NCBI GenBank assembly: GCA_938003685.1
Contig: CALKXT010000047.1
Location: 1 to 64,000 of the forward strand
Reading direction: 5' to 3'
Length of the DNA stretch: 64,000 nucleotides
Origin: an uncultured Sulfitobacter sp.
Lineage (GTDB): Bacteria; Pseudomonadota; Alphaproteobacteria; Rhodobacterales; Rhodobacteraceae
Part shown: piece after piece, positions 55,772 through 62,058 of the stretch
Layout: every line of letters begins with the position of its first letter
How positions within the stretch are numbered: the first letter of the stretch is position 1
The notes under the pieces: generated by a model
Told to the model about the DNA's origin: nothing
The model's database searches: none
What the model saw: only the letters and a program-made list of their open reading frames with translations
Position numbers and translations under genes: made by a program

Positions 55772-58700
55772 ATGGAGCCCAACATATTTTCCTTTATCTG
55801 GAAGTATTCCCGGCGCGATCAAATCTCGTTGTTGGTGTTCACAATTGTTACCTTCCCCTTCCTGTTTGTGACTCTGGAATTGCCAAAACGCATCATCAAC
55901 GATGCGATTGGTGCATCTTCTGAAGTGGTAAAAGTGCTTGGGGTCGAAATGACACAAGTGCAATTTCTGTTGGTGCTGTGCTTTGCTTATCTTGCTGCGG
56001 TGTTTGTGCATGGCCTGATGAAAATGCGTTTGAACACGATGAAGGGTGTCGTAGCAGAGCGGCTTTTGCGGCGGTTTCGGTATCGGTTGATCGAACGGAT
56101 GATGCGTTTTCCGCGCAGCTATTTTCAAACCACCAGCCAAGGTGAATTGGTGAGTATGGTCACCTCTGAGGCAGAGCCAATGGGTGGATTGATGGGCGAT
56201 GCCGTTGCGCAACCTGCGTTTCAAGCAGGGCAAATGTTGATCATCCTGCTGTTTTTGTTCATTCAGTCGCCATGGTTTGGGCTGGCTGGAGTGGCTCTGA
56301 TCCCGCTTCAGGCGTGGCTCATTCCATTGCTGCAACGACAGATTAACTTGTTGAACAAGGAGCGCATCAAAGAGGTGCGCCGCTTGTCCGCTGAAATTGG
56401 CGAAACAGCCGCAGGTATCACAGATTTGCGGACCAATGGCGGCTGGCGGTTCCGCCTTGCGGGCTTTACCGGCACACTGGGTCGGCTTTTTGATATCCGG
56501 TTCCGGATTTACCAAAAGAAGTTCTTTATGAAGTTCCTCAACAACTTCATCACGCAATTAACGCCGTTCTTTTTCTATGCCGTTGGTGGCTATTTGGCGA
56601 TCAAAGGTCAGATCACCGTTGGCGCGCTTGTGGCTGCTTTAGCCGCTTACAAAGACTTGAGCAGCCCGTGGAAAGAGCTGCTAACATATTACAACCAAAC
56701 CCAAGATATGGCTCTGCGCTGGGAAGTTGTGACCGAACGGTTCGCACCCAAAGGTATGATTGACGAAGGATTATTTGTTGGCGCACCAGACAACATTCCG
56801 CATTTGCGTGGGGATATCGACCTGCAAAAAGTCTGGGTGCGCAACAGTGATGGCAACATGCTGCTTGAGGACATAACGCTGCATATTCCCGCAGGTAGCC
56901 GTGTGGCAATTGAAGTGCCTGCGCAATCCGAACGCACAGCACTAGCCGAGATTCTAACCCGAGAAATTACGCCGACACGCGGCAAGATCGCGATTGCAGA
57001 TCATGACCTGTCTGGCCTGCATCAATCTGTGGTCGCGGCCCGTATAGGCTATGCCAGTGCTGCCCCCTATTTGTTTCAGGGAACGGTTGGGGACAACATG
57101 CTGATGTCGCTGCGTACAAGTCCAAAGACCGTGTTGTGGGATCCTGAACATAGCGACCGTGAAACAATTGAAGCTATGCGGGCAGGTAACAGTCGCGACA
57201 GTTTGCGTGCGGATTGGCTTGATCCTGGCATCGCCGATCTTGATTCAGATGACGACATTCTAAAGTGGTGGTTCAAGATCACGCAGGCGCTTGGGACAGC
57301 AAACCTGTTGTTTGAGCGCATGTTGAATTCACGCATGGATCAGTCAAAGCACCCAGAGCTTGCCAAACGTGTGGTTTCTTTGCGCGAAGAAGTTCGCAAA
57401 CGGCTACAGGACCAAGGGTTGGATAAGGTTGTGAACCGTTTTCATCCCGATAAATTCAACCCCTCGGTGCCGCTTGGTGGTAACCTGATGTATGCCAGCC
57501 CTGCGCGAAACATTAGTCCGCAAAGCTTGGTTGCTGAGCGTACATTCCTGGCGATGATCATTGATCAGGGCCTTGCGGAACAGGCGATTGCCATCTCTCA
57601 AACGCTTGTCGAAGCCTTGCACCAGACCTTTGGCATGGACGGCACCGGACACCCGTTGTTCACGGCTTTGGGGATTGAAGAAACGCTCTACGAGCAATTG
57701 GTAGATATTGCCGTGCGTCGTCGTGAAAAGGGCGATGAGGCATTGTCACCTGACGAATTTGCATTGCTCCTGACCGTACCGTTCGCTTTTACAGCTGAAC
57801 AAATCGGCCCTGCCTTCCCAGAAAGCTTCAAGCAAGAAATTTTGCAAATTCGCAAAGTGTGCGGTCAACAATTGCTAGATGACGCCCGTGATTTGTTCAT
57901 ACCAGTTACTCCAGAAACTTATTTGCCACGTCTGACCATTCTTGAAAATATGCTGTATGGGCGCATTTCCGGTGTTGCTGGATTACAGGCTGATCTGGTT
58001 CAAGATGTGGTCACAGAAGTAATGGAAGAACATGGATTGCAGCAATTGGTATCATCAATTCTGTTTGACGTGAACACAACGATTGGTGGGGCTAACCTGC
58101 CTGCTATTTTCCAAGACCGTGTTGCATTTGGCCGGGCTGCGATCAAGCGGCCTGATGTATTGGTGTTTAACCAATTACTGGCGGGCCAAGATGCAAAATC
58201 GCAGGCTGATATTCGCGATCAACTGAGTGATCTGTTGCCTCAAAGCACGCAAATTTATCTGAACGATAAATTTACAGCGCCAGAAGATTTCGACATGCAT
58301 TTGGTCATTCGAAATGGTCGCCTTGATGGCGTGGCCGAAGCTGAAGGGAAGGATGAAGAGGATAGCAGTTCTGATGATCTAAGGAGTAAGTTGCGTATCA
58401 TTTCTCAAAATCCGCTGTTTGGCAGTCTTGATGCCCGCAGCCAGCGGTTGTTGGCATTCGCGGCACAATGGTACGAAGTTGAAAAAGGCGATCGCATCTT
58501 TTCCATGGGTGAACGTCCTGATGCGGCCTATCTGTGCCTATCGGGTCGTGCGGAATTGGCGTGGTTTGATCCAAACGGTGTCTCACATCACGTATCAGAG
58601 GTCGAACCGGGTCGGTTAATCGGTGACCTTGCTGTTATCTTAGATGAGCCGCGGCAATTGGACCTGACAGCGATGGAAACAACTAAATTTCTGCGCATTG

Positions 58701-58879
58701 GTGCAGACCAATTTCTTGCAGTTGTTGAAAATGACAAAACAGTTCTGCTTCGGCTGTTGCACACTGTAGCAGGGCATTTGACTGGTGCTGCTGAGCTGTT
58801 GCGCGCCGCAAAGATTGAGATACCCCGCGAATTTGGCCCCTCTATCCCACCATCGATTGAGCCTGAGGATATCAAGTGA
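55772..58879 (+). CDS. ABC-exporter-like protein with degenerate (pseudo-ATPase) NBD, large NBD insertion and C-terminal cyclic-nucleotide-binding-like domain
   Basis: N-terminal ABC type-I exporter TMD; NBD-like regions with Walker A, Q-loop, signature, Walker B and H-loop all altered; C-terminal cNMP-BD pattern (GDRIFSMGERPDAAYLCLSGRAEL...LIGDLAVILDEPRQLDLTAMETTKFLRI). Confidence 0.85.
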   Translation: MEPNIFSFIWKYSRRDQISLLVFTIVTFPFLFVTLELPKRIINDAIGASSEVVKVLGVEMTQVQFLLVLCFAYLAAVFVHGLMKMRLNTMKGVVAERLLRRFRYRLIERMMRFPRSYFQTTSQGELVSMVTSEAEPMGGLMGDAVAQPAFQAGQMLIILLFLFIQSPWFGLAGVALIPLQAWLIPLLQRQINLLNKERIKEVRRLSAEIGETAAGITDLRTNGGWRFRLAGFTGTLGRLFDIRFRIYQKKFFMKFLNNFITQLTPFFFYAVGGYLAIKGQITVGALVAALAAYKDLSSPWKELLTYYNQTQDMALRWEVVTERFAPKGMIDEGLFVGAPDNIPHLRGDIDLQKVWVRNSDGNMLLEDITLHIPAGSRVAIEVPAQSERTALAEILTREITPTRGKIAIADHDLSGLHQSVVAARIGYASAAPYLFQGTVGDNMLMSLRTSPKTVLWDPEHSDRETIEAMRAGNSRDSLRADWLDPGIADLDSDDDILKWWFKITQALGTANLLFERMLNSRMDQSKHPELAKRVVSLREEVRKRLQDQGLDKVVNRFHPDKFNPSVPLGGNLMYASPARNISPQSLVAERTFLAMIIDQGLAEQAIAISQTLVEALHQTFGMDGTGHPLFTALGIEETLYEQLVDIAVRRREKGDEALSPDEFALLLTVPFAFTAEQIGPAFPESFKQEILQIRKVCGQQLLDDARDLFIPVTPETYLPRLTILENMLYGRISGVAGLQADLVQDVVTEVMEEHGLQQLVSSILFDVNTTIGGANLPAIFQDRVAFGRAAIKRPDVLVFNQLLAGQDAKSQADIRDQLSDLLPQSTQIYLNDKFTAPEDFDMHLVIRNGRLDGVAEAEGKDEEDSSSDDLRSKLRIISQNPLFGSLDARSQRLLAFAAQWYEVEKGDRIFSMGERPDAAYLCLSGRAELAWFDPNGVSHHVSEVEPGRLIGDLAVILDEPRQLDLTAMETTKFLRIGADQFLAVVENDKTVLLRLLHTVAGHLTGAAELLRAAKIEIPREFGPSIPPSIEPEDIK

Positions 58880-59775
58880 TCTGGCGATTGAACTATGACG
58901 CGCATGATGGGTTTGTCGACCCTGCACGCCAGAGTGCGGCGCTATGGAAATTTGTTCTAGGATTCAGCTTGGCGGCCATCGGATACGTGGCCTTGAATCA
59001 GATGTTCTTTCAGATGGTATATTCGGCCATCGGGGCACGCAGCACTGAACTGTACAATCAACTGCTAAGTGGCAGCACTCCACAGGCGATGTTTTTGTTG
59101 CTGTTTAGCTTTGTGTTTATGACTGTGGCCGTCGGTGTTTCTGTCCGCATTGTACACCGTAGATCGGTTTTGAGTTTGTTAGGCGACTTGCGTTTGGGTG
59201 CCCGGCAATTTGGCGCTGTATCGGCTATGATGCTGGGGCTGACATTCATTCTGTTTGTATTGCCGCCTTGGGACATGGGTGGCGAATTTGTGCCAAACTT
59301 GGATTTGTCACGCTGGCTGATGTTGTTGCCCTTGTCGTTGGTTGCAGTGTTTATCCAAGTCAGTGCCGAGGAAGTCGTGTTCCGTGGGTATGTCCAACAG
59401 CAATTGGCCGCGCGGTTCCGCTCGCCTCTGGTATGGATGATCTTGCCCTCTGTGGTGTTCGCAGTGGGGCATTACCTGCCTGAGACAGCGGGTGAAAATG
59501 CACTGATTATTGCCGCTTGGGCTGGTGTATTTGGCATTTTGATGGCCGATCTTACCGCACGATCAGGCTCGCTTGGTCCGGCAATTGCGGTGCATTTTTG
59601 GAACAATGTATCGGCTATATTGATTGTGTCGATGCCCGAAAATCTATCGGGGCTGGCGCTGTATCTTGCGCCATTCAGCATGGGTGACAGTGATGCAATG
59701 CGCGCGTGGTTGCCTGTGGACTTCGCTTTGATGTTTGTCTCGTGGTTGGCGGCACGGCTTGCGATACGCCGCTGA
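58876..59775 (+). CDS. CPBP family intramembrane glutamic endopeptidase
   Basis: Multi-TM; EEVVFRGYVQQQL, VVFAVGHYLP and HFWNNVSA (CPBP/ABI motifs); GTG start overlaps the preceding stop. Confidence 0.9.
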   Translation: MIWRLNYDAHDGFVDPARQSAALWKFVLGFSLAAIGYVALNQMFFQMVYSAIGARSTELYNQLLSGSTPQAMFLLLFSFVFMTVAVGVSVRIVHRRSVLSLLGDLRLGARQFGAVSAMMLGLTFILFVLPPWDMGGEFVPNLDLSRWLMLLPLSLVAVFIQVSAEEVVFRGYVQQQLAARFRSPLVWMILPSVVFAVGHYLPETAGENALIIAAWAGVFGILMADLTARSGSLGPAIAVHFWNNVSAILIVSMPENLSGLALYLAPFSMGDSDAMRAWLPVDFALMFVSWLAARLAIRR

Positions 59776-59833: not shown

Positions 59834-60787
59834 ATGAACTGGATCACCAATTACGTCCGGCCACACATCAACTCGATTTTTTCGCGTCGTGAAACGCCAG
59901 ATAACTTGTGGACCAAATGCGATGACTGCGGCACCATGCTGTTTCACCGCGAGGTTGCTGAAAATCTAAACGTCTGCACAAGCTGTGGCCACCACATGGC
60001 GATTTCTCCACGTGAGCGGTTTAAGACGTTGTTTGATGGCGGGATTTTCACCGAAGTATCAGTTCCTGCACCGACAGCGGACCCTCTGAATTTCCGTGAC
60101 CAAAAGAAATACCCTGACCGTTTGAAAGCTGCCCAAAAGCAAACCAGCGAATCTGAGGCGATGTTGGTAGCCACGGGTGAAATGGGACGCACGCCAATTG
60201 TTGCTGCGGGCCAAGATTTTTCATTCATGGCTGGTTCCATGGGGATGTATGTCGGCAACGCCATCATCGCTGCCGCCGAAGAAGCCGTGAAGCTTAAGCG
60301 CCCGTTGATCTTGTTCTCTGCTGCTGGCGGTGCGCGCATGCAGGAAGGGATTTTGTCCTTGATGCAGATGCCACGTACCACTGTGGCCGTTCAAATGCTG
60401 AAAGAGGCCGGGTTGCCTTATATCGTTGTGCTCACTCACCCGACAACCGGTGGGGTAACGGCCAGCTATGCAATGTTAGGTGATGTTCACATCGCTGAAC
60501 CGAACGCTTTGATCTGCTTTGCCGGTCCGCGCGTGATCGAACAGACAATCCGTGAAAAATTACCCGAAGGGTTCCAGCGCGCTGAATATCTACTGGATCA
60601 CGGCATGCTTGATCGTGTGACACCGCGTACAGAATTGCGGGATGAATTGATCAATATCACACGGATGTTGCTTGGTCTTACGCCTGCGATACGCGGAGAT
60701 TTACCACCGCCAAGTGACGATACTGCACTGCCCCAAAAGGATGCAGACACCGAAGTTGTGGACGCAAAGGCAGATGCCCCCAAATGA
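59834..60787 (+). CDS. accD: Acetyl-CoA carboxylase carboxyltransferase subunit beta
   Basis: Zinc ribbon [27 protein letters not shown] and AccD core ([17 protein letters not shown]). Confidence 0.96.
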
Positions 60788-62058
60788 CGGGCCAGACATC
60801 GGACGCCATCCTTGCACGGATGTTGGCGCTACACCCTAAGATCATCGATCTCACGTTGGACCGGATGTGGCGTCTGCTAGAGGCGCTTGGCAATCCTCAG
60901 AATGATCTGCCGCCTGTGATCCACATTGCAGGAACAAATGGCAAAGGATCAACCCAAGCGATGATCCGTGCCGGGCTAGAGGCGATGGGAAAGTCCGTTC
61001 ACGCCTATACCTCACCGCATTTGGCGCGGTTTCATGAACGCATCCGCGTTGCCGGATCCCTGATTGACGAAGACGACCTCACAGCGGTCTTAGACGAATG
61101 TTACGCGGCCAATGGCGGCGAAAGCATCACGTACTTTGAGATCACGACATGTGCGGCCATTTTGGCGTTCGCGCGGACCCCTGCGGATTATACGCTGCTT
61201 GAGGTCGGCCTAGGTGGGCGCTTGGATGCAACCAATGTGGTGGACACACCCGCGCTGACGATCATCACGCCTGTTTCTGTCGACCATCAGCAATTCTTGG
61301 GTGAAACTTTGCCCGAGATCGCAGGCGAAAAGGCGGGGATCATCAAACGCCTTATTCCTTGCGTGGTTGGTCCACAGGAAGAAGCGGGTTTGGACGTTAT
61401 TGAAGCCGTGGCCGCCCGTCATGGTGCGCCGCTGTTGGCATACGGTCAGCACTGGCATGTATCCTCCGAAGCTGGGCGGATGGTCTATCAAGATGAACGT
61501 GGTTTGCTTGATCTGCCGCGTCCCAATTTGCCCGGTGATCACCAGATCATGAACGCAGGTGCCGCATTGGCCGCACTGCGCCATCTGGGTGCCGATGATA
61601 CAGCCTGCGAGGCCGCAGTGACCAAGGCATATTGGCCTGCACGTATGCAGCGTCTTACGGCGGGCCCACTGATCGATATCGCTGGTAAGGCTGAGCTTTG
61701 GCTTGATGGTGGGCACAACCCGGCAGCGGGTGACGCACTGGCTGCCGTTTTGGCGGCTGGTGTCAAACGTCCCACTCATTTGATCTGTGGTATGCTCAAC
61801 ACCAAAGACATCACAGGATATATGCGCCCGCTTGCGGCCCATGCTGACACACTGCACGCGGTTTCCATCCCCGGTGAGGCGGCAACGCTTTCTGCTGCTG
61901 AGACTGCGACCGCCGCGCGTGAGGTCGGTCTGATTGCATTCGAAGCGGAGGACGTGACGCACGCGCTAAGCACTATTGTCGCCGATGATCCAACAGCACG
62001 TGTGCTGATCTGCGGATCATTGTACCTTGCCGGCAACGTGTTGCGCGAAAACAGCTAA
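60784..62058 (+). CDS. folC: Bifunctional folylpolyglutamate/dihydrofolate synthase
   Basis: [53 protein letters not shown]. Confidence 0.95.

Follow-up and report, generated by a model that had tools for sequence, protein, structure and literature searches.

The window, i.e., the whole 64-kb stretch of DNA that was analysed, carries on its plus strand an intact open reading frame of 1035 codons (55772 to 58879) with an ATG start. Its product is composed of an ABC-exporter-like transmembrane domain (TMD), a degenerate nucleotide-binding domain (NBD) split in two halves, and a C-terminal cyclic-nucleotide-binding (CNB) domain. The elements of this gene and of those that follow it are:

55772..58879 (+), whole gene, 1035 aa: ABC-exporter-like TMD, NBD degenerate and split, CNB at the C-terminus
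55772..56806 (+), TMD, aa ~1-345: type I exporter fold, the best-conserved part across orthologues
56807..57100 (+), N-terminal half of the NBD, aa ~346-443
56903..56950 (+), Walker A position, aa 378-393, VAIEVPAQSERTALAE: glycine loop absent, Lys replaced by Arg
57041..57103 (+), Q-loop position, aa 424-444: Ala in place of Gln; the repeated module, copy 1
57101..57970 (+), ~290-aa insert separating Q-loop and signature, aa 444-733, carrying module copies 2 and 3
57431..57496 (+), Q-loop/ENLLFG module, copy 2, aa 554-575
57896..57961 (+), Q-loop/ENLLFG module, copy 3, aa 709-730
57971..58345 (+), C-terminal half of the NBD, aa ~734-858
58082..58138 (+), signature position, aa 771-789, IGGANLPAIFQDRVAFGRA: LPAIF versus LSGGQ of exporters
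58151..58192 (+), Walker B/D-loop position, aa 794-807, PDVLVFNQLLAGQD: DE replaced by NQ
58247..58288 (+), H-loop position, aa 826-839: Asp in place of His
58478..58735 (+), CNB domain (PF00027), aa 903-988
58610..58666 (+), CNB phosphate-binding cassette, aa 947-965, GRLIGDLAVILDEPRQLDL: Glu replaced by Asp, Arg retained
58876..59775 (+), CPBP/Rce1-like intramembrane protease, in overlap with the stop codon of the ABC gene
59834..60787 (+), accD, following in conserved order
60784..62058 (+), folC, after accD in the gene order, likewise in Ruegeria

Pfam detects an ABC_membrane domain at residues 39-290 (E 2.5e-21) and a cNMP_binding domain (PF00027) at residues 903-988 (E 2.1e-13), the latter bearing out the C-terminal cNMP-binding-like domain of the original prediction; it detects no C39-type peptidase domain in the protein. 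The ABC_tran profile does match residues 365-469, but with 22.1 bits it stays under the curated cut-off of 25, which the relatives L043 and L113 pass. Matches to PDB sequences fall in two separate blocks (residues 23-443 and 716-852), and the NBD is therefore split, with a first half at residues ~346-443 and a second one at ~734-858. Between the Q-loop and the signature, the window protein harbors ~290 extra residues, versus 57 residues (Q to SGG) in each of nine ordinary exporters. This insert had been missed earlier, when the NBD was taken for a single stretch following the TMD.

A profile self-comparison reveals that the insert is a tandem multiplication of the NBD's own Q-loop/ENLLFG module. 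The Q-loop module IAYVGxxAYxFxxSxRDNLLYG aligns with VEPFDxDRYNTNATVAENLLFG and VAFFDxxxYNAAASLQDNILFG, and the three module matches stand 10.5, 7.5 and 6.3 SD above the background profile scores. AlphaFold models were built as monomers from 42 sequences. The insert is modelled with fair confidence (pLDDT 83.6), its second and third copies share a strand-helix-strand pattern, and Foldseek returns no known fold for it in the PDB below an E of 1. In the full-length model (pLDDT 79.3, pTM 0.66), the long TM helices are kept, as are the sheet of the NBD and the barrel of the CNB, and its best structural matches with Foldseek are ABC exporters. The fold of an ABC exporter, NBD included, is hence preserved in the model.

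The catalytic motifs were compared, in a single alignment, with those of nine ordinary ABC exporters encoded in related genomes. All nine controls display GxxGxGK[ST], Q, SGGQ, DE and H in identical columns, where the window protein reads VPAQSERT, A, LPAIF, NQ and D; each degenerate motif quoted in the original prediction lies at the homologous column. None of the catalytic residues of Walker A, Walker B, Q-loop, LSGGQ or H-loop is kept in this alignment. The Walker A Lys is indeed lost, as had been claimed: it is replaced by Arg and followed by Thr, the sole canonical residue left beside it, and the position of the catalytic Glu is occupied by Gln. The claim that every canonical motif is degenerate needs one correction, as the D-loop Asp (GQD) is retained. 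No ATP site was found elsewhere in the window protein, and the model, which puts the sheet of the NBD at the degenerate site, gives no support for one. Proteins of the window's clade very likely do not hydrolyse ATP, a statement to be made with less assurance for those relatives that possess the Lys, Glu and His.

Orthologues with 64-84% identity and intact frames are present in most genomes of the genus. The motifs are missing there too, and the replacement residues are themselves conserved, as exemplified by GG[ANTS]NLP at the signature; no orthologue with intact Walker A and B was found. In the folded domains, dN/dS against the nearest orthologue is ~0.04-0.07 where dS can be estimated, dS being often saturated elsewhere, and the TMD is the most conserved domain. 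Purifying selection thus acts on the orthologues of this motif-less ABC gene, and the earlier view of an intact frame that is not a pseudogene stands. A recent decay of the window gene is ruled out by the conservation of its orthologues and by dN/dS.

The original prediction dealt with a single gene; a large family lies behind it, in which the CNB is frequently a separate gene and which is associated with a set of glycan genes. Using the profile of the insert alone, this family is found in 100 of 289 alphaproteobacterial genomes. In a phylum sample, every match of the insert profile falls within Alphaproteobacteria; when named genome contigs were scanned, the family was also seen in MAGs labelled Gammaproteobacteria. 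Searches of the open literature, which took in few subscription papers and no preprints, turned up no description of the family or of the glycan gene set.

Seven canonical catalytic residues were followed through 173 family members, a set that includes a few near-identical pairs and in which the gene calls of fetched loci are longest-ORF calls. No member possesses all seven, the best one reaching five. The window's Rhodobacterales clade, monophyletic in the TMD tree (support 0.999), is devoid of Lys, Gln, SGGQ, Glu and His, the Walker A Lys being kept in 0/43 members. Among the 130 relatives outside this clade, Lys is kept in 80, Glu in 73 and His in 39. There, the residue after the Walker A Lys is Asp or Glu in 100/130, the Walker B Asp is lost in 114/130, with the Glu often retained, and the double Gly of the signature is present in a single relative (1/130). 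These relatives are rewired in a systematic way, Asp/Glu taking the place of the Walker A S/T, Asn/Ser that of the Walker B Asp, and LSxxQ that of LSGGQ; the acidic residue in Walker A and the loss of the Walker B Asp occur together in 91/130. Since Lys, Glu and His are kept in many relatives, and L168 and L077 retain K, T, D, E and H, such relatives may bind ATP or hydrolyse it slowly.

The CNB of the window protein has an altered pocket, GDLAVILDEPRQLDL versus GEIAILCDVPRTATV in the family: the Glu is changed to Asp, the Arg is kept, and the RTA(T/S) end is absent. Outside the genus, the CNB is encoded by a separate downstream gene on the same strand in 62/78 named loci, usually some tens of bases past the ABC gene, and is fused in three more. 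The phosphate-binding cassette of these separate partners is almost invariant, GEIAILCDVPRTATV (GE...PRTA kept), a textbook cyclic-nucleotide-binding pattern. The adjacent CNB gene is missing in some gammaproteobacterial relatives. ABC-CNB-GGDEF fusions are found at loci L160 and L161, and L164 has the same extension; the three belong to uncultured Rhodospirillales, and their GGDEF signature looks degenerate.

The fused paralogues of the genus can be sorted into groups. The window copy belongs to group A; the more diverged group C retains the pocket Glu and Arg (GEL...PRAL). Among the matches listed, a class III cyclase lies within 6 kb of 9/60 fused genes of the genus versus 0.73 expected, a Poisson expectation that ignores relatedness, two of the nine sharing one arrangement and a few listed cyclase hits from very cyclase-rich genomes being outside the count. 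All nine genes, among the same matches, belong to group C (9/26), and none of the 27 genes of group A has a cyclase within this distance. The cyclases beside the fused paralogues are of several different types rather than one dedicated enzyme. At L208-L215, differing class III cyclases adjoin group C paralogues, several of them together with a DUF3307-like small membrane protein. Among the matches listed, class III cyclases are present in 28/40 genomes of the genus and absent from the window's genome (85% complete) and from the complete genome G023. The group C cyclases and the nearly invariant pocket of the partners, set against the altered pocket of the window protein, give the cyclic-nucleotide link good support in the family and weak support for the window copy. 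Of the ligand control proposed for the window's CRP-type domain, a link to cyclic-nucleotide signalling is supported at the level of the family, through the CNB next door with its canonical pocket and the cyclases beside fused paralogues, and not for the window copy, given its altered pocket and a genome in which no class III cyclase is among the matches listed. Control by cyclic nucleotides is probable for the family; for the window copy it is possible but doubtful.

The second feature of the family is its association with glycan genes. Outside Rhodobacterales, glycosyltransferases lie near the ABC gene in 68/80 loci, where frequent companions are a histidine phosphatase, an oligopeptide-type importer and a protein with a WWRDDD motif. 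The latter has no Pfam hit, and we take it to be deacetylase-like. Among the 289 genomes of the class, 85 have both the ABC family and the WWRDDD protein, 15 the family alone, one the WWRDDD protein alone, and 188 neither (Fisher 3.6e-56, the genomes not being independent of phylogeny). For the same pair, 121 genomes of the taxonomic family give 20/2/3/96 (p 1.1e-17), phylogeny being accounted for incompletely in both tests. In several genomes, the two genes are far apart, and their co-occurrence is thus not explained by linkage alone. The glycosyltransferase set of the window's genome is on a contig (L194) other than that of the ABC gene. This conserved set (L194:5747-11747) comprises four glycosyltransferases, a histidine phosphatase and the WWRDDD deacetylase-like protein, and its flanks carry a UDP-sugar dehydrogenase and an MscS-type channel. 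In G023, glycan genes are located directly upstream of the fused paralogue L036. These associations suggest that the family serves a glycan pathway, a view that we hold to be rather likely.

At the window locus itself, the CPBP protease has intact EExxxR, FxxxH and HxxxN motifs. In nearly every orthologue of the genus (group A) and in Ruegeria, the ABC gene is followed by the protease gene and then accD; in Ruegeria, folC and zapE come next in order, matching the window. In the L010 orthologue, the CPBP gene was not found beside the ABC gene, and the ABC gene and accD remain, closer together. The window copy is a diverged branch, with an altered CNB pocket and with the CPBP protease and accD adjoining. 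In the loci examined, no half of a canonical exporter recurs beside the family genes; a partner encoded at a distance is conceivable. Upstream on the minus strand (window:47681-51839) lie an RND efflux pump and a periplasmic adaptor, assigned by eye and of ordinary type; no RNA families or tRNAs were found within the 64-kb window.

Among known systems, the type I (ABCB-type) exporters TM287/288, TmrAB, PCAT1 and P-glycoprotein share the TMD and NBD fold with the window protein, both in sequence and by Foldseek on the model. The window protein differs from them by the absence of a canonical site, by the ~290-aa repeat insert, and by the C-terminal CNB. In TM287/288 and TmrAB, the degenerate site is one of two composite sites only (PMC7756269). 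In open-literature searches, the nearest described exporter carrying a CNB is HetC of Nostoc PCC 7120, an ABC exporter with an N-terminal CNB, reported to bind ppGpp with a Kd of 59 uM, that requires its ATPase Glu and its C39 peptidase domain (PMC10986499). In contrast to HetC, ATPase residues are lost in the family, its CNB is C-terminal or encoded separately, and the window protein has no peptidase domain. CFTR and SUR, which belong to an unrelated subfamily and have no CNB, keep one working nucleotide site. These proteins (ABCC7, ABCC8/9) put the ABC fold to another use, as a gated channel or as a receptor (PMC7756269). Resemblance to PglK stems from a weak NBD match to the window protein and from the glycosyltransferase gene context of the family. 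PglK is an ATP-driven flippase, whereas in the family the catalytic residues are missing. PglK represents an exporter-type ABC protein involved in glycan assembly, flipping a lipid-linked oligosaccharide (PMC5395944). As the defining catalytic features were tested and are absent, the window protein is a variant of the ABC-exporter fold set apart from working ABC exporters.

We infer, with about an even chance of being right, that the protein is a non-hydrolysing, cyclic-nucleotide-controlled membrane protein of ABC fold acting in envelope-glycan assembly. It would form a homodimer, in which the enlarged NBD may serve as a regulatory platform. Binding of a ligand to the CNB would shift the arrangement of the NBDs, and this shift would open or close the TMD path for a glycan precursor, e.g., a lipid-linked sugar, without ATP hydrolysis. 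The drifted CNB and the CPBP protease as neighbour indicate that signal and output have probably been retuned in the window subfamily. Taken with all its parts, i.e., a widespread ATP-hydrolysis-free family of ABC fold, controlled by cyclic nucleotides via a partner or fused CNB, with a triplicated Q-loop/helical module in its NBD, and moving or gating a lipid-linked sugar for an undescribed envelope glycan made by the conserved glycosyltransferase set, the proposal is tentative and somewhat unlikely to hold in every part. A regulatory receptor or scaffold that does not transport, with a role like that of SUR in KATP channels, is likewise rather unlikely. Its TMD would anchor a CNB/NBD sensor controlling a partner, for instance the CPBP protease where the window subfamily is concerned and glycosyltransferases in other members. 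Such a role would fit a fold conserved despite the loss of the catalytic residues, the overlap of the CPBP gene with the ABC stop codon, conserved in the genus and in Ruegeria, the fused CNB and GGDEF signalling domains, and the relatives that have a TMD and no NBD. However, the TMD is the best-conserved domain, a better match to a conserved path or substrate site than to a plain anchor, and L010 keeps the ABC gene with no CPBP gene found beside it; on balance, movement of a substrate is moderately favored over a receptor function.

An unusual working ATPase, in which the acidic residue of Walker A replaces the Walker B Asp for the metal or in which the protein pairs with a canonical half-transporter, is improbable. 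The joint change in 91/130 relatives looks like such a swap, Lys is retained in 80/130, and transporters with one degenerate composite site do function (PMC7756269), but the window clade has lost Lys, Gln, SGGQ, Glu and His, no canonical exporter half is among the conserved neighbours, and nearly all Lys-retaining relatives lack the signature double glycine. An antiphage system of the Pycsar kind, with the protein as a cyclic-nucleotide-gated membrane effector, is very improbable: the match to PADLOC models of Pycsar-type effectors comes via the CNB domain only, and the cyclases adjoining some paralogues are of differing kinds, none dedicated, with none near the window subfamily (0/27, 6 kb) or in the window's genome among the matches listed. 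Furthermore, the family is widespread and stable, its neighbours are housekeeping (accD) and glycan genes, and the CPBP and deacetylase-like neighbours have no PADLOC hit. That the loss of every catalytic motif reflects a decaying exporter gene is hardly credible: throughout the genus the frames are intact and the replacements conserved, purifying selection acts, and the loss is monophyletic across genera.

The ATP site is what defines an ABC protein. If true, the favored reading of a non-hydrolysing, cyclic-nucleotide-controlled protein would extend the re-uses of the ABC fold known from CFTR and SUR to bacteria, in a family present in about a third of the sampled alphaproteobacterial genomes, and would offer an experimentally tractable system in which to ask if hydrolysis of ATP is dispensable for driving or gating an exporter fold. 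This reading would also mark out a conserved glycan gene set and a possible membrane target for cyclic nucleotides in marine and plant-associated bacteria.

The relatives reduced to a TMD, without any NBD, branch near the window clade in the TMD tree. In the same genus, they are found at L044, L045 and L047-L050 (e.g., L047:1044-2057) as ORFs of ~320-470 aa. At L048, such a gene comes after an oligopeptide-type importer operon (Yej-like by eye), and at L049 it lies upstream of an apparent nuoA. The relatives at L099-L103, which come from another taxonomic family of the class, have no recognisable catalytic motif and are basal in the TMD tree.
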